The notes under the pieces are model-generated. The model was not told where the DNA came from. It saw only the letters and a program-made list of their open reading frames with translations, and ran no database searches. Shown piece after piece: positions 18,145-32,991 of a stretch of DNA of 32,991 nt. Both the position numbers and the translations under genes were made by a program. Origin of the DNA: a bacterium (lineage in GTDB: Bacteria > KSB1 > UBA2214); NCBI GenBank assembly GCA_029560815.1, contig JAKQKF010000392.1, forward strand, positions 1 to 32,991, read 5' to 3'. The stretch's first letter is position 1; the number at the start of each line of letters is the position of its first letter.

Positions 18145-18990
18145 TCACATCCACCATCCTGTACATAAAATTTTCTGAGGCCCTCGCCGCTCGACAACTC
18201 CCACTTTCTGAACTTTAGATGGGGCCATACCTAGATCAAACGATGGTTGACCACAGATAGTTGCCCCTTTGAGTTGATTACACTTTCTGCATAAAGTTTG
18301 TACATTAGCAGAAGTGTGGGGGCCGCCTAATGACAGAGGAACAATGTGATCGAGCTCTGGTGCTTTATCATCTATTGTCCCGCGCAATTTCTTCGGTGTC
18401 TTTTGTCCGCATAATCGACAGCGCCATCCATCTCTAATAAATATAATAATCGGATCAATTGATTCGGCCTTCCCATTATTTACTCTATGGGCACGCCGCT
18501 TTGCTTTAGCAATTCTTTTGTTTCTTTTATCGGCACAGTCATCAGAACAATATTTTTTACGCTTATCACCATAAGTAGTTACCACCTGACAGTCGCATTC
18601 AATACAGGTGAATTGACGTGGAGTTTTACGTTTTTTGCTTAAATTGTAGGCATATTGTTTGAGACAATTTTCATCGTTACAAACTTTCTGATTTATTCTG
18701 TTCTGTTTGAAATCATGTCCACAAATGGGGCATCGAATGATCTCCAAGCCCCTTTTCTGTGGTTTACATTTATCTGAGCAATATATCTGATAATGTTTTG
18801 AAGAGATAAAGAAATTACCACATTTTTTACATGTTTTTGAGGCTTTATTTTCTCTCTCCCTTATATTTCTTGTCCCATTTGGCCCGCGTTCTTTTTGATG
18901 ATGAGCTCTATTTCTATGCGCAGAACAACAATATTTTTGATTTAGGTGATTTGAGACAAAATTGATTCCACAAAAAGCGCAGGTTTTCAT
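18145..18990 (-). CDS. HNH endonuclease with several zinc-ribbon repeats
   Basis: 281 aa. The first 180 residues hold four successive Cys-rich motifs of the C-x2-C ... C form ('CAFCGINFVSNHLNQKYC', 'CKKCGNFFISSKHYQIYC', 'CPICGHDFKQNRINQKVC', 'CIECDCQV...KYC'). The HNH nuclease core is C-terminal: 'WRCRLCGQKTP', 'ELDHIVPLSLGGPHTSANVQ', 'LCRKCNQLKG'. Repeated DNA-binding ribbons plus HNH are typical of free-standing homing-type endonucleases. The gene is clearly more AT-rich than all late neighbours, suggesting recent arrival. It overlaps the upstream HNH gene by 4 bases and ends 2 bases before the terS start. Confidence 0.9.
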   Translation of the reverse strand: MKTCAFCGINFVSNHLNQKYCCSAHRNRAHHQKERGPNGTRNIRERENKASKTCKKCGNFFISSKHYQIYCSDKCKPQKRGLEIIRCPICGHDFKQNRINQKVCNDENCLKQYAYNLSKKRKTPRQFTCIECDCQVVTTYGDKRKKYCSDDCADKRNKRIAKAKRRAHRVNNGKAESIDPIIIFIRDGWRCRLCGQKTPKKLRGTIDDKAPELDHIVPLSLGGPHTSANVQTLCRKCNQLKGATICGQPSFDLGMAPSKVQKVGVVERRGPQKILCTGWWM

Positions 18991-19331
18991 CGTTCCCCCC
19001 GACGATTTTCAGTGTTCGTTATCCGAGAATGGCAGGAGTGACATAATGATTCAAGCTGAGACGATAAAAATACCTGGCGATTTCCACGGTGCGGATTTAT
19101 ATGATGAACGTCAGTAGCGGGAACATATAATCCATTGAGCAAGCATTCCTCACACCAGGGGTGTTCAGCGAGCCATTTGCGACGCCGCGCCTGCCATTTT
19201 CGATCATATAATCGCTGCCGCTCAGGATCGTGTTTGTTCCCGATCTCTCGCCGGTGAGAATCACAATATCCAGAGCTGACCAAATTATGACAGCCTATTT
19301 GAGAACAGGTTCGAAGCGCCGGCTTTGGCAT
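18987..19331 (-). CDS. HNH endonuclease of the terminase-associated type
   Basis: 114 aa from ATG 19331 (MPKPALRTC), two bases after the endolysin stop; the longer frame would run into the endolysin gene. A zinc-binding N-terminus ('CSQIGCHNLVSSGYCDSH') is followed by 'RRRKWLAEHPWCEECLLNG', 'ATDVHHINPHRGNRQVF' and 'LESLCHSCHSRITN', the H-N-H core. Small HNH proteins next to terminase genes are needed for specific DNA packaging in HK97-like phages (gp74 type), and position supports that role here. Confidence 0.9.
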   Translation of the reverse strand: MPKPALRTCSQIGCHNLVSSGYCDSHRREIGNKHDPERQRLYDRKWQARRRKWLAEHPWCEECLLNGLYVPATDVHHINPHRGNRQVFLSSQLESLCHSCHSRITNTENRRGER

Positions 19332-19333
19332 TA

Positions 19334-20317
19334 CTAAACTAACTCCATATAAACCTTGCCTCCATAGCGATAAGCAGCCCATTTGCCAGGCTCGATCTCT
19401 ACCCACACATCCGAGCCAGCCAGGCCAGTGATATCGACCAGGCTGCCTGCCTGCAAACGACCCACTGCAGGGTAGCCAGTGCCTGGACCAGATCGCACAT
19501 TTAAACTATCAACCAACACCCGCGCCCTCAGCGCTTCCGGCATAGGAACAGGCGCAGGTACAGGCACAGGCGCTGGGGGTGTAGCCCAGCTGGTAGAGCG
19601 GATCACCTCCCATCCGTCCTGCACATACAGGCGGGCGTTGCCCCACTCCCAGAAGTTACAGCCCTGCAGGGACAGGTCCTTGCAGGCCTGGATAAACTCG
19701 CTCACATCCGCGGCCGTCGGCCACCAGCCGTGTTCCCTGAAACAGGCCCCGGTCGGAAAGACCGGCCGATTAAACTGTTTATATTCCGCCAGCGTCCGCA
19801 CCAGCTGCTCCCGCGGATTGTGCGCCTGCATCCAGTACACCTGCGGCATAGCAAAATCACAGTAGGCCAGGAACGATTTAAACGGAAATTCAGGATGATA
19901 GGATGGCCAGCGGTATGTGCTGAGCGCAATGGGGAGATCGTTCCCTACGCCAGCCCGGAGCGCCTTCATGTAGGCCTCTGCCTGGGCCGGCTTGTTTTTG
20001 TACTCCACCTCTGCGTTGACCACAAATCCAGCCGGCTGCAGCCTCTGGACCCGCTCGATTGCCGCCATTGCCTCGCTGGCCGGATTGCCATAGATATACT
20101 GCCAGAACCAGACCTGTATGCCGGCATCCCTTAAAGCAGAGACCAGATCCGGCAGCAGATCACGGCCTTCGTACACGTTATAGCGATAGGGGCCGTCAGC
20201 GGCCTTAATCAGCACGTGCGAGAGCTGCAATCGAATGGCCTGCTCAACAATGGCAAAAACGTTGCCACCCTCACAGTAGCGAATTTTCCAGATGTAAAAA
20301 CCCTTGCCGGCAATCAT
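19334..20317 (-). CDS. Endolysin: TIM-barrel glycoside-hydrolase-like domain plus SH3 cell-wall binding domain
   Basis: 327 aa from ATG 20317 (MIAGKGFYIWK), which overlaps the upstream stop (ATGA). Residues 1 to about 235 look like a glycosidase-type barrel ('LSHVLIKAADGPYRYN', 'IQVWFWQYIYGNP', 'GFVVNAEVEYKNK' with a likely catalytic Glu, 'DFAMPQVYWMQAH'). A Pro-Ala-Val linker (about 242-257) leads to a bacterial SH3 domain ('DSLNVRSGPGTGYPAVGRL', 'DVWVEIEPGKWAAYRYGG'). This arrangement degrades peptidoglycan and anchors in the wall. It belongs to a holin-lysin cassette at the head of the late operon. The bond specificity cannot be told from the sequence. Confidence 0.85.
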   Translation of the reverse strand: MIAGKGFYIWKIRYCEGGNVFAIVEQAIRLQLSHVLIKAADGPYRYNVYEGRDLLPDLVSALRDAGIQVWFWQYIYGNPASEAMAAIERVQRLQPAGFVVNAEVEYKNKPAQAEAYMKALRAGVGNDLPIALSTYRWPSYHPEFPFKSFLAYCDFAMPQVYWMQAHNPREQLVRTLAEYKQFNRPVFPTGACFREHGWWPTAADVSEFIQACKDLSLQGCNFWEWGNARLYVQDGWEVIRSTSWATPPAPVPVPAPVPMPEALRARVLVDSLNVRSGPGTGYPAVGRLQAGSLVDITGLAGSDVWVEIEPGKWAAYRYGGKVYMELV

Positions 20318-22603: not shown

Positions 22604-22826
22604 TTTTCACCTCCCTCGGTGTCGCCTGTCTGGACCACCAACTGAAAATCACATACACCAGGTCCAGCGCGGAATCTGCGCCAAACTGGATTCGCGTCCC
22701 GCGCTGCGCGGCCCGTTTTTTAATCTCCAGCTCAACCGCATCCAGGAACGCCTGGTAGTAGGCCCGCTCCGGCTCGGGCAGCCCGGCCAGAAACTCGGTG
22801 AATTTTTCCACGCTGTTTTTCATCAT
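22596..22826 (-). CDS. Small hypothetical early protein (76 aa)
   Basis: 76 aa, helical and charged ('VEKFTEFLAGLPEPERAYYQ', 'LDAVELEIKKRAAQRGTRI'), ending in 'VYVIFSWWSRQATPREVKNG'. It lies 6 bases after the replication initiator stop and overlaps the next gene. No membrane helix or known motif is evident. Confidence 0.65.
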   Translation of the reverse strand: MMKNSVEKFTEFLAGLPEPERAYYQAFLDAVELEIKKRAAQRGTRIQFGADSALDLVYVIFSWWSRQATPREVKNG

Positions 22827-22832
22827 CCGCTC

Positions 22833-23528
22833 CTAATGCTCGATCCATCCGGCGTACTCCCCGGATACGTAAGCCCGCCGCTGCTCCTCTTCCGTCAGCG
22901 GTCGCTGGCGGTTGGCCAGCCGGTACAGGTAGATCGCCCCGCCGCGGCCCTCGCCGACCGACGCTATCACCTCCCGCGCCAGGTCGATCAGCGCCTCGCG
23001 CGGCCAGCCCGCCGCGGCCACGGCCGGGAACTTCACCCGGAAAACGCCCACCCGCCCCAGCAGCTCGGCCAGCTCGCCGTCGATTGCCTCCGTCTGGTTT
23101 TCTGGATTGCCGTCCAGATTTCTGGATTTCTGTCCAGATTTCTGGACGCCATGGGCAGGGTTAAGAGAATCATCAGGAGGATGAGGATTGTTTTGGTTAA
23201 CAGGATCCTCTTCATTAAGCGAATCCAGATTTCTGGACGGATCACGAGCCGCATCCGTGAACCGGACGGTTAAGCCGCCGCGCCAAGCGGTGCTGAACAG
23301 AAGCCAGCCCGTATCTCTCAACGCAGCCAGGTGCCCGTAGATCGTCGCCCTGGATTTTCCTGTTGTCTCAATGAGAGCGTTCATCGAAATATCGAATAGC
23401 TCCGACTGCCCCCACGCCAGCCCGCGCAGCTGGATGTAGGTATCCCTGACCGCCGGCGAGAGGCGCTGGTCATAAACCAGCCCCGCCGGGATGTTGACGT
23501 ACCGCGGAGGCAAAACTGGTCTGCTCAT
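22833..23528 (-). CDS. Replication initiator-like protein with winged-helix domain and internal iterons
   Basis: 231 aa. Residues 1-95 form a winged-helix DNA-binding domain ('YVNIPAGLVYDQRLSPAVRD', 'ISMNALIETTGKSRATIYGH', 'LAALRDTGWLLFSTAWRGGL'). Residues about 95-145 are a low-complexity Asn/Pro/Ser linker, and the C-terminal 85 residues are helical. This is the domain plan of lambda O-type initiators: DNA-binding head, linker, helicase-loading tail. The DNA coding for the linker contains four copies of a TCCAGA-TT-TCTGGA palindrome, which looks like the origin. No helicase or polymerase is encoded, so the host machinery must be recruited. Confidence 0.7.
   Translation of the reverse strand: MSRPVLPPRYVNIPAGLVYDQRLSPAVRDTYIQLRGLAWGQSELFDISMNALIETTGKSRATIYGHLAALRDTGWLLFSTAWRGGLTVRFTDAARDPSRNLDSLNEEDPVNQNNPHPPDDSLNPAHGVQKSGQKSRNLDGNPENQTEAIDGELAELLGRVGVFRVKFPAVAAAGWPREALIDLAREVIASVGEGRGGAIYLYRLANRQRPLTEEEQRRAYVSGEYAGWIEH
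23093..23237. repeat. Iteron array: candidate origin of replication
   Basis: TCCAGATTTCTGGA occurs exactly at 23113-23126, 23133-23146 and 23224-23237, with a degenerate copy (TCTGGTTTTCTGGA) at 23093-23106. The first three are spaced exactly 20 bp. Each unit is an inverted repeat (TCCAGA/TCTGGA). Between the third and fourth lies a purine/AT-rich stretch (23,160-23,222) suited to melting. Since 20 is not a multiple of three, the copies are read in three different frames of the initiator, so selection must be on the DNA. Confidence 0.75.
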
Positions 23529-23695
23529 CGGGCGCCAGCCACACTCCGGTTACCGCAGACGTGATGATGCCAGTTGCCCGCCGCGGTCAGCGTCCACAGC
23601 TTGGATCCGCACCAGGCGCACAGGCACTCACAGCGCGGATAGGGATTGCCGCACAGCGCGCATTTGCGCTGCGCGGCAGTCGGCTCGTGGTGCAT
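23525..23695 (-). CDS. Small zinc-ribbon protein (56 aa)
   Basis: 56 aa from ATG 23695, overlapping the upstream stop (ATGA). It is almost entirely a Cys/His metal site: 'CALCGNPYPRCECLCAWCG' and 'WHHHVCGN'. Longer upstream frame is only a shadow. Overlaps the initiator start by 4 bases, so the two are co-translated. May assist DNA binding or regulate the initiator; unknown. Confidence 0.7.
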   Translation of the reverse strand: MHHEPTAAQRKCALCGNPYPRCECLCAWCGSKLWTLTAAGNWHHHVCGNRSVAGAR

Positions 23696-24156
23696 CACCC
23701 GCCGACCTCTGATCCCTCTGAGACGGCCTCCGCCGATTCCTCGAAAGGGTCCGCGGTTGCCCGCCCTCCGGTGGCTCTGCTTTCCGCCTTCTGCGCCTGG
23801 TACTGCCGCGCATAGCGGCGCGCTTTTTCTTTCAGGCACTCCCGGCTGCAAACCTTCGCTCTTGGCCTGGTGACCGGCTTTCCACAGATCTCGCAGCTGC
23901 GGATGCCGCTATCAGTCTCCTGGCGAACCGGATTCACAACGACTGTATCGCCAAGAGCGATGAGTTCGCCAGCTCCGCGAGGCTCCGCCAATTCCGTCAG
24001 TTCCTCCGCGCCCAGCCCGCGGGCGATCAGCGCCAGGTTCTCGTGATCGCCAATATCCACCAGGCGCGCACTAGTAGCCATTATCATGTGCGCGTTCAAA
24101 TGGTATAGTACATGGGTGAATATCTCATAGGTTTGATCATTCATCAAAAATTTCAC
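23695..24156 (-). CDS. Hypothetical protein with C-terminal zinc finger (153 aa)
   Basis: 153 aa from GTG 24156, chosen because GAGGAG lies 6-7 bases upstream; an ATG follows four codons later. N-terminal helices ('TYEIFTHVLYHLNAHMIMAT') are followed by an acidic middle. A compact C-x2-C ... C-x3-C ribbon lies at residues about 89-110 ('CEICGKPVTRPRAKVCSREC'), followed by a basic helix ('KEKARRYARQYQAQK'), as in many phage DNA-binding proteins. The last 25 residues are acidic. Exact role unknown. Confidence 0.7.
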   Translation of the reverse strand: MKFLMNDQTYEIFTHVLYHLNAHMIMATSARLVDIGDHENLALIARGLGAEELTELAEPRGAGELIALGDTVVVNPVRQETDSGIRSCEICGKPVTRPRAKVCSRECLKEKARRYARQYQAQKAESRATGGRATADPFEESAEAVSEGSEVGG

Positions 24157-24159
24157 TGC

Positions 24160-24267
24160 CTACTCCTCCCGGTCCAGCTGACCGACTATACATTCGATTG
24201 CCCAGACGATCACGCCGACCAGGACCGCCAGGACCCACCAGCTGACCAGCGCCAGGATCTTCCTCAT
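24160..24267 (-). CDS. Tiny single-pass membrane protein (35 aa)
   Basis: 35 aa from ATG 24267, which overlaps the winged-helix gene stop (ATGA), to TAG 24160, 3 bases before the next start. Residues 4-28 are one hydrophobic helix ('ILALVSWWVLAVLVGVIVWA'), with a basic start (MRK) and acidic end (LDREE). One of a group of such proteins in the early operon. Function unknown. Confidence 0.7.
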   Translation of the reverse strand: MRKILALVSWWVLAVLVGVIVWAIECIVGQLDREE

Positions 24268-24653
24268 ATCCCCAACCCCAGCTGGTGGCCATCCCCAAAC
24301 TGCTCGCGCGCCGATTTGTCCATCGCGGATTTCGTCTCGAGCATGTCGTAAATCTTCGCGCCAAACTCGATTCGCATGAACTCCTCGTACTCATCGCGGG
24401 TCCGTACCATGTAATAGCCGCCATCCTCGCCGGCCGCGCTGCCGATCAGATGCCCCTGCCGCCTGAGCTGCTTGATCGCCTCTCGCACCACCCGCTCGGT
24501 CGTGCGCACTCCGAGCATCGCGCAGTGAGCCGTCAGGTTTCCGCGGGATATCGGATTGGCCCGGGTGTACTGCGTGACTATGCGCAATATAGCCCTCTCC
24601 AGCCCGGGCGGCAGGGAAATTTTCCGCTCTTCATCAGGATATTTTCTCGCCAT
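24264..24653 (-). CDS. Winged-helix DNA-binding protein
   Basis: 129 aa. After a Lys/Arg-rich start, residues about 20-85 form a winged helix: 'ERAILRIVTQYTRANPISRG', 'TTERVVREAIKQLRRQGHLI' (recognition helix) and 'GSAAGEDGGYYMVRTRDEYE' (wing). The fold suggests a regulator of replication or transcription, and it is a candidate early-to-late regulator. It has a clear GGAGGT Shine-Dalgarno and a private leader with two hairpins (24,660-24,733), unlike most neighbours. Confidence 0.75.
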   Translation of the reverse strand: MARKYPDEERKISLPPGLERAILRIVTQYTRANPISRGNLTAHCAMLGVRTTERVVREAIKQLRRQGHLIGSAAGEDGGYYMVRTRDEYEEFMRIEFGAKIYDMLETKSAMDKSAREQFGDGHQLGLGI

Positions 24654-29810: not shown

Positions 29811-30740
29811 ATGAATATTTCACTCACTTTATCCCAGGCCATCGACGGCTATCTCATGCACGCCGCCGCCCGTCATCTCTCGGAGGACACCATCCGAGAT
29901 TATTCCAATACGTTTCGCAAATTCACCAGCTTTTTCAAAACGGATCCGCCCCTCGCCTCGATCGATCATCTCCAGGTGGAGAGTTTCCTTTCTCAGCAGG
30001 ATGGGGTCAGCAATAAAACGCTGCTTAACTATCACATCGGCCTTTCCGCCCTCTGGACCTGGGCGGTCAAAGAGCGGATCGTCTCGGAGCACATCCTGCG
30101 CCAGGTCACCCGCCCCAAGCCCGAAAAGATGGAGATCATCCCTTTCACCGACTTGGACATTCGGGCGATGGCCAGCGTCCTCACCCGCTCGCGCGCCTAC
30201 TCCCGGCCGGGCAAGCGCGAGTCCCAACACACCCTGCGCCACCCCGAGCGCAATCTGGCCATGTTCTACTTGCTCCTGGATACCGGCATCCGCAATGGCG
30301 AGTTGTGCAATATGACAATCCGCGATTGCGACGTCAAGAATCTGCGCATCACTGTGTTTGGCAAGGGATCCAAAGAGCGCACCATCCCGATCTCTCACCG
30401 CACTGCGCAGGTCGTCTGGCGCTATCTCTCCAAACGGCCCGACGCCCGCCTGGACGCGCCTCTGATCGCCACCGAGCACAACCGCCCATTGGACCGTCAT
30501 AACGTCGATCACATTCTCGCGCGCATCGGCGAGCGCGCCGGCGTGCCCAACTGCCATCCGCACCGCTTCCGCCACACCTTTGCCATTCTCTACCTGCGCA
30601 ACGGCGGCGATCCGTTCACGCTGCAACGGATATTAGGCCACAGCACGTTGACGATGGTCAACCGCTACCTCTCCATCGCCCAGGCCGACCTGGCCACCGC
30701 CCACCGCCGCGCCAGCCCGGTGGATAATCTCCGCCTATGA
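29811..30740 (+). CDS. int: Phage integrase, tyrosine recombinase
   Basis: 309 aa. An N-terminal SAM-like core-binding domain (residues 5-95, 'ARHLSEDTIRDYSNTFRKFT') precedes the catalytic domain. Catalytic set: R161 ('DTGIRNGEL'), K188 ('GKGSKERTIPI'), H251 and R254 ('HRFRHT'), H277 ('LGHSTL') and Y286 ('NRYLSI'). All are present. It integrates the genome at the tRNA-Met 3' end through the adjacent attP. The style is XerC/D-like. The 3' end is partly duplicated downstream. Start ATG 29811 follows a weak GGAGA. Confidence 0.95.
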   Translation: MNISLTLSQAIDGYLMHAAARHLSEDTIRDYSNTFRKFTSFFKTDPPLASIDHLQVESFLSQQDGVSNKTLLNYHIGLSALWTWAVKERIVSEHILRQVTRPKPEKMEIIPFTDLDIRAMASVLTRSRAYSRPGKRESQHTLRHPERNLAMFYLLLDTGIRNGELCNMTIRDCDVKNLRITVFGKGSKERTIPISHRTAQVVWRYLSKRPDARLDAPLIATEHNRPLDRHNVDHILARIGERAGVPNCHPHRFRHTFAILYLRNGGDPFTLQRILGHSTLTMVNRYLSIAQADLATAHRRASPVDNLRL

Positions 30741-32055: not shown

Positions 32056-32991
32056 CAACTCACCCTGAAATATTCCACTAGAAATTTGGCATAACTTTTT
32101 GAGTTGGGGTGCAATGCAATTCCAATGCGGCTCGGCGTTAAATTCAATGAGCCTGAATATACCGTTTGCCACAACAATCCATGATTGGAATACTCAACTG
32201 TGTATGTGCCTGGAATAGATGAGGGCGTAGTCACCCTGATAAAAGCAGGTCCGGTATCATACTTGTTGACGTATCTACTTATGTCATATCGGTCTGAGCC
32301 GAGAGCTTTGCCCCACCAGCGCAGACTGCTATTGTGGATAAAACCAAATATAGCCTCATTGCTCCCGTCTTGATAAATATATATTCCCCCCAGTGAAAAA
32401 TTGGCTTTAAACAATGCGTGTGCTTTTATTTCAATTGTAAACGGCAGGCTGGGCGGCGTTTGATATATATACGCTTGAGCATTTGACGCGCCGCCATTAA
32501 TATCCATGTATAAATATCCGGGCAGCGATGTTTCGCTGAGCGTCGTGAACGTACCGGATTGCGTCCATTTACCCGTATCAAACGACTCGTCATCAAACTC
32601 ATCGTCTTTGGCATTGGCGGAGGTAGGCGGGGTTTCTCTGAAATATTGTGCCAGTTGCGGCCTGATAATTTCAGCCGATAATGTACCGTTGGCTGAAGTT
32701 ACAACGTATGTGGCATCTGTCGGAGCGCCGCCACCCCCCGGCGCCCCGCCGTCCTTGATCACTTTTCCTGTCACACCGTCGAACACCGCCAGATGCCCGT
32801 CTGTTGCCCCGTCCGGGCCGACCACGTCGCCCGATCCGCCCCCGCCGCCTCCGCTCTTGAGAATCACCACCCGGTAGGCGTCCTCATCCGGCGCCGAGCC
32901 AAACGCCACGTTGATCGTGTTCGTGTCCACAATCGTGATCGCGGTAGCGTCCGCCGTCGCCTCCACCGGATCGGCACCGGTCAAGTCCCAA
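32055..32991 (-). CDS. Long tail fibre / receptor-binding protein, C-terminal part (continues into base 1)
   Basis: This is the second half of the fibre that starts at 881. In the circle it spans 32850 to 32055 (bases 32851-32991 repeat 1-141). After a Gly-rich hinge and 'GDVVGPDGATDGHLAVFDGV', a common fibre motif, the last 190 residues form a concanavalin-like lectin domain ('DEFDDESFDTGKWTQSGTF', 'LPFTIEIKAHALFK', 'YTVEYSNHGLLWQTVYSGSL', 'GIALHPNSKSYAKFLVEYF'). It is probably the receptor-binding tip. This end is more AT-rich than the shaft part, suggesting exchange. Confidence 0.85.
   Translation of the reverse strand, partial: WDLTGADPVEATADATAITIVDTNTINVAFGSAPDEDAYRVVILKSGGGGGGSGDVVGPDGATDGHLAVFDGVTGKVIKDGGAPGGGGAPTDATYVVTSANGTLSAEIIRPQLAQYFRETPPTSANAKDDEFDDESFDTGKWTQSGTFTTLSETSLPGYLYMDINGGASNAQAYIYQTPPSLPFTIEIKAHALFKANFSLGGIYIYQDGSNEAIFGFIHNSSLRWWGKALGSDRYDISRYVNKYDTGPAFIRVTTPSSIPGTYTVEYSNHGLLWQTVYSGSLNLTPSRIGIALHPNSKSYAKFLVEYFRVS
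32851..32991. repeat. Terminal direct repeat, copy 2
   Basis: Exact second copy of bases 1-141. When it is collapsed the genome is a circle of 32,850 bp. Both copies lie inside the long tail-fibre gene, so they should be counted once. Confidence 0.95.

Follow-up and report, generated by a model that had tools for sequence, protein, structure and literature searches.

Does a palindrome that recurs inside a protein-coding gene, in more than one reading frame, belong to the protein or to the DNA? The question is raised by the gene of a 231-aa protein in the window, the whole stretch of 32,991 bp analysed here, for which an initial annotation had proposed an origin of replication hidden in the gene of its own initiator. 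We reach a similar view and put at roughly 85% the probability that the region is a phage replication origin situated inside its own initiator's gene and selected as DNA, a reading built on sequence comparison.

The window itself appears to be a small temperate phage. Its genes include those for a terminase, a portal, a head protein, a tape measure, integrases and a repressor-like protein, and its ends are identical over 141 bp (1–141 = 32851–32991), which indicates a circular assembly with a unit of 32,850 bp. Two integrase-like genes lie on opposite strands of this one small phage genome (27169–28137, minus; 29811–30740, plus), and a low-GC patch at 18145–19406 (about 0.41–0.43), perhaps a recent arrival, holds two HNH endonuclease genes. 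The AT-richest part of the window is 18.0–19.5 kb, not the spacer described below, and Rfam had no match in the window. Since relatives of the 231-aa protein were found in IMG/VR contigs and in two Anaerolineae metagenome-assembled genomes (MAGs), the phage host is probably a member of the Anaerolineae.

An initiator-like gene with palindromes in its linker

The best profile match of the 231-aa protein is to phrog_270, 'replication initiation protein' (E 2.9e-8), over residues 9–141, which span the N-terminal part and the linker only. The same profile was matched at E ≤ 0.01 by 11 of the 24 members of A1, the window protein included, and the 'O-like' phrog_678 was likewise matched by 11 of 24. 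As to whether the N-terminal part adopts a winged-helix fold, its Pfam HTH_36 match falls below the curated cut-off. Relatives of the protein numbered 30 at E ≤ 1e-3. A phylum sample gave matches in 4 of 400 genomes at E ≤ 1e-3, only G001 being strong and L017–L019 weak, and a class sample gave 6 of 396 at 1e-10 with A1 and 7 of 396 at 1e-8 with A3. Collections of named phage and plasmid records held no protein match at E ≤ 1, and the best hit of a PDB sequence search with A1 reached an E value of only 0.071.

In three more distant relatives, L024 (835–1737, minus strand), P0041 and P0043, the homologous N-terminal domain is joined to a C-terminal DnaA_N domain that scores above the Pfam cut-off. 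The DnaA_N domain recruits the helicase in DnaA, and its presence in these relatives fits an initiator role. The tail of another homologue, L039, resembles the C-terminal domain of the window protein, by eye only. We infer that this C-terminal domain could be the part that recruits the host replication machinery.

Table 1. Features of the initiator-like gene, with positions in the window
Feature	Position	Strand	Description
Initiator-like gene, 231 aa	22833..23528	-	helix-turn-helix segment, repeat-holding linker, C-terminal domain
Helix-turn-helix segment, residues 22-76	23301..23465	-	Pfam HTH_36 E 0.0018; alignable in 24 A1 rows
Iteron 1 (coding order)	23224..23237	-	perfect palindrome, frame 0, encodes SRNLD
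AT-richer spacer, candidate unwinding element	23147..23223	-	GC 0.45 vs 0.66 in rest of gene
Weak dyad in spacer (hairpin if single-stranded)	23183..23210	-	folding z -2.18; 2/200 shuffles fold as well
Iteron 2	23133..23146	-	perfect palindrome, frame 1, encodes VQKSG
Iteron 3	23113..23126	-	perfect palindrome, frame 0, encodes SRNLD
Iteron 4, degraded	23093..23106	-	3/12 arm positions differ, frame 2, encodes NPENQT
C-terminal domain, residues about 149-231	22836..23084	-	partly conserved in A1

The repeats lie where the initial annotation had placed them, in the linker between the helix-turn-helix segment and the C-terminal part (Table 1). They have the palindromic form TCCAGA-NN-TCTGGA, with a 6-2-6 geometry and 12 arm bases, and of the four TCCAGA-TT-TCTGGA copies claimed there, three hold up: TCCAGANNTCTGGA occurs exactly three times in the window (iterons 1 to 3), against 0.00 expected from 100 dinucleotide-preserving shuffles of the window, none of which contained it. 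No further copy with ≤1 mismatch was present elsewhere in the window, and one with 2 mismatches was found at 2878. The fourth claimed copy is degraded. At ≤3 mismatches the whole window contains 12 palindrome matches against 12.17 expected, which is chance level, and the status of this copy as an iteron would rest only on its 20-bp phase and on the peptide NPENWT at the equivalent place in the close relative P0002, a protein-level comparison.

Read in coding order on the minus strand, the four copies encode SRNLDS (frame 0), VQKSGQ (frame 1), SRNLDG (frame 0) and NPENQT (frame 2). The proposal that one motif is read in all three frames is thus borne out in the window for frames 0 and 1, which the intact palindromes occupy, whereas frame 2 is represented by the degraded copy alone, the single such case among 67 sites in 18 genes. 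The 20-bp period put forward with it joins the three clustered copies, but the remaining site lies 91 bp from its neighbour.

Conservation of the sites as DNA

We compared 18 genes carrying the motif, the window included. They comprise 17 distinct genes, L026 being a truncated identical copy of L029 that is counted in the recoding, spacer GC3 and 67-site tallies; other loci repeating another's gene (L005, L014, L015, L016, L025, L031, L032 and L034–L038) were counted once. Seven of the 18 recoded genes (L011, L012, L026, L027, L028, L029 and L030) were fetched by the motif and are biased toward it. When each gene was recoded synonymously 2000 times with its contig's own codon usage, 52 sites with ≤1 mismatch were present against 2.6 expected, and 63 against 11.3 with ≤2 mismatches. 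With L026 removed, 49 sites stood against 2.4 at ≤1 mismatch, and the window together with the 10 genes found by protein gave 24 against 1.1 (recoding sums). At ≤1 mismatch, fewer than 1% of recodings reached the observed number in 16 of the 18 genes, the exceptions being L004 (8.4%) and L010 (4.1%); the test was not significant for L004 at ≤1 mismatch (0.084), nor for L001 (0.123) and L004 (0.066) at ≤2.

Codon choice was examined in 62 gene pairs with <50% amino acid identity, drawn from 15 of the 18 genes (L010, L011 and L026 omitted) and not independent of one another. At identical residues, the codon was also identical in 591 of 687 cases (86%) within the sites, compared with 43–51% in the flanks (1512/2996 in the N-domain, 727/1689 in the C-domain); the spacer gave 363/563. 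Among the 25 frame-1 sites, the V/F, S and G codons each end in the same base throughout (25/25 each), and the final base of the Q codon is variable (14 G, 10 A, 1 T). The 67 sites divide into 41 in frame 0, 25 in frame 1 and the one in frame 2, with two to nine sites per gene at ≤2 mismatches. L008, L026/L029 and L011 have their last site in frame 1, most relatives have it in frame 0, and L010 keeps all its sites in one frame. The right arm is perfect in 58 of the 67 sites and the left arm in 38, so the sites are not strictly symmetrical.

These data bear on the alternative that the linker peptides are what is selected, the DNA similarity stemming from recent duplication or shared ancestry. 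Peptides resembling SRNLD and VQKSGQ do recur at corresponding places in most A1 rows, and the K/R exchange in SKNLD preserves the chemistry at the cost of the left arm. However, such a protein-level repeat is strongly disfavoured, and we regard it as barely tenable: the sites exceed the expectation from synonymous recoding, third bases free to vary are near-fixed, codon identity is 86% within the sites against 43–51% in the flanks, the same DNA encodes different peptides in different frames, and the distant homologues described below have different peptides with an unchanged palindrome geometry. In relatives the arms persist as DNA even at codon positions that are free to change, and they survive radical substitutions of the central residue (SRNLD, SRFLD, SRYLD and SRSLD, with perfect arms, in L002, L003, L007 and L009), the reverse of a conserved peptide with a lost DNA repeat, which the initial annotation had named as telling against its reading. 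Its statement that only selection on DNA can keep the motif is well supported by the recoding, the codon identity and the frame changes, though short of proof, and we likewise consider maintenance of the iterons by selection on DNA a well-supported interpretation of these patterns.

Two loci display other arrangements. L012 (8287–9198, minus strand) has nine iterons in two groups, spaced 20–21 bp and mostly 21 bp apart, which keeps the frame. In L013 (6957–8105, minus strand) the window palindrome forms a head-to-tail array with a 15-bp period in a single frame, giving QKSGL repeats; the protein has no Pfam match and a PHROG match at chance level (E 0.062). It is perhaps another initiator with coded iterons. 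The locus came from a search with the motif itself, so the sequence it shares carries no independent weight.

The spacer between the site groups and its counterparts in distant homologues

In each of the 18 genes, the spacer that separates the site groups has a higher AT content than the remainder of the gene. Its GC3 is 7/25 in the window against 140/175 in the rest of the gene, and a dip is present in all 18 spacers (0.14–0.31 versus 0.48–0.80), although the genes are related and the spacer counts are not independent. In the largest gaps of the distant homologues L021, L022 and L023, GC3 is 0.56 versus 0.82, 0.22 versus 0.75 and 0.47 versus 0.87, respectively.

This spacer is one of the observations that weigh on a second alternative, in which the palindromes are operators and a helix-turn-helix regulator binds inside its own gene to control transcription, no origin being involved. 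Binding of palindromes by a dimeric helix-turn-helix protein is typical of regulators, and Pfam regulator helix-turn-helix models match the protein weakly. We nevertheless judge this explanation improbable, in view of the position of the sites in the middle of the gene, the low-GC3 spacer between their groups, the phrog_270 initiators as best profile match and the DnaA_N domain in some relatives. In addition, a simple consensus scan of 22700–24300 found no sigma-70-like promoter on the minus strand, its single match being on the plus strand. Plasmid iteron arrays, for their part, can serve both replication and partition or copy control, so that the sites might form a partition or copy-control (incompatibility) locus and not a replication start. 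This is very improbable in our estimation: PHROGs scans of 39 distinct ORFs gave no recognisable partition protein, the integrase genes suggest an integrating prophage, and the AT-rich spacer fits an origin.

The dyad in the window spacer is marginal. By folding it reached p 0.044 under a synonymous null and 0.156 under codon permutation, and by stem score it was not significant under either of two nulls (p 0.37 and 0.43). Across 20 genes (L026, L024 and L039 omitted), spacer folding gave p ≤ 0.05 in 15 under the synonymous null and in 11 under codon permutation, compared with 5 of 60 control segments from the same genes (folding, synonymous null), one of which (L011) overlaps iterons. A gapped-stem score passed p ≤ 0.05 under both nulls in 13 of the 20. 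L027, L028 and L030 pass by stem score but fail by folding, L007 and L010 have no dyad signal by either measure, and a perfect-repeat test was mixed, with 3 of 18 genes (L001, L003 and L011) at ≤0.05 under the synonymous null. The dyad was tested in several versions and is therefore a weaker result than the sites and GC3. Its stems differ between lineages and are often triplet repeats, such as AGGAGG/CCTCCT, GAAGAAGA/TCTTCTTC (L001), GTAGTAGTAG/CTACTACTAC (L011), GCTGCTGCTGTT with its complement (L021, L023) and TGTTGTTGTTG with its complement (L022); these triplets may partly reflect low-complexity coding.

L021, L022 and L023 share a homologous N-terminal domain with A1 (hhalign 99.4%, E 6.5e-22), and their linkers carry palindromes of the same 6-2-6 geometry as the window but of other sequence, namely GGCAAA-NN-TTTGCC in L021 and L023 and TGCAAA-NN-TTTGCA in L022. 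L023 is the cleanest three-frame case. It has eleven palindromes without a mismatch between their 6-base arms, of which two read GGCAGA/TCTGCC; six lie in frame 1, three in frame 0 and two in frame 2, and they encode peptides such as RQSFAE, SGKVLPE and ESANFCR. In L021 and L022 all palindromes keep to one frame each. Of five distant homologues compared, two (L024 and L039) lack iterons within the gene, and the GGCAAA tandem pattern was found in no viral contig.

We tentatively suggest, while considering it rather unlikely, that one initiator family, to date recorded from viral contigs and Anaerolineae MAGs, has replaced its origin sequence (TCCAGA, GGCAAA, TGCAAA) around a fixed plan, with iterons on both sides of an AT-rich stretch that has complementary triplet repeats at its flanks. 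These repeats would act as single-strand landing sites through which the initiator enters from both sides on opposite strands, as a two-sided counterpart of the DnaA-trio, and the linker peptide would be largely a by-product of the DNA.

A proposed in-gene origin and its known counterparts

We propose the following hypothetical sequence of events for an origin within the initiator gene, in which (i) the helix-turn-helix domain would bind the palindromic iterons of the two groups that flank the AT-rich stretch; (ii) initiator loaded on both sides would open this stretch, where many relatives have a dyad; (iii) the C-terminal domain would recruit the host replicative helicase; and (iv) replication would start at the iteron region. 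Recruitment of a host helicase is proposed because PHROGs scans of 39 distinct window ORFs, the initiator-like gene and its neighbours among them, gave no profile match to a phage helicase, loader or primase at E limits of 1, 0.001, 0.01 and 0.01; several structural-region ORFs fall outside these scans, and a divergent loader could escape them. The GC skew switch that the initial annotation had anticipated at 23.1 kb did not appear; the skew was negative in every measuring interval but one.

On this proposal, an origin for Anaerolineae phages, a single stretch of DNA would be under double selection, for its origin function and for the linker it encodes, and the origin sequence would differ between homologues while the initiator domain and the layout stay. 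The joint evolution of an initiator and of binding sites located in its own gene thereby becomes testable, as does the share of the linker peptide that is a by-product of DNA constraint.

Internal origins occur in SPP1 gene 38 and in lactococcal rep genes. The lambda O/ori plan invoked by the initial annotation fits the layout. In lambda (J02459), too, the initiator gene has the origin at its centre, with palindromic iterons about 20 bp apart between the DNA-binding and C-terminal parts, an AT-rich tract beside them and a dyad just beyond the tract. The lambda iterons start at 39034, 39054, 39078 and 39101, in frames 0, 2, 2 and 1 of the O gene; they occupy all three frames, so frame rotation itself is not new. 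Lambda differs from the window phage in that its iterons have another sequence and lie on one side of the AT-rich stretch and not on both, and in the helicase-loader (P type) gene beside O, none being recognised in the window phage. Homology to lambda O was not detected with hhalign (probability 0.3%, against a single lambda O sequence) or BLASTP (best E 37). The weak 'O-like' phrog_678 matches (best 8.9e-4 in A1, 2.8e-5 in L011) leave open a possible remote link. On the evidence of layout, the window system would work like lambda O/ori, and membership of the O family by descent is unsupported.

An account of lambdoid phages places the origin, made up of iterons and an AT-rich tract, centrally in the O gene, and describes in-gene origins with 6 iterons in which the two extra iterons add 13 residues (PMC7466680). 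Iteron number thus varies among relatives there, as in the window family with its two to nine, whereas the iteron sequence is almost constant across the phages compared there and the distant members of the window family use other palindromes (PMC7466680). With the DnaA-trio, as outlined in a second source, there is an analogy only: triplet-like repeats stand beside double-strand binding sites at the presumed unwinding region, the trio consensus being a repeating 3'-GAT-5' trinucleotide beside the boxes that is bound as single-stranded DNA (PMC6669920). The triplets of the window family differ from that description in forming an inverted repeat, in varying between lineages and in lying in coding DNA (PMC6669920). 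Titles and abstract openings from the open-access literature gave no description of an in-gene origin in Anaerolineae phages, which does not prove absence. The novelty lies in the family, in a layout with iterons on two sides, and in iterons that differ in sequence while keeping their geometry.
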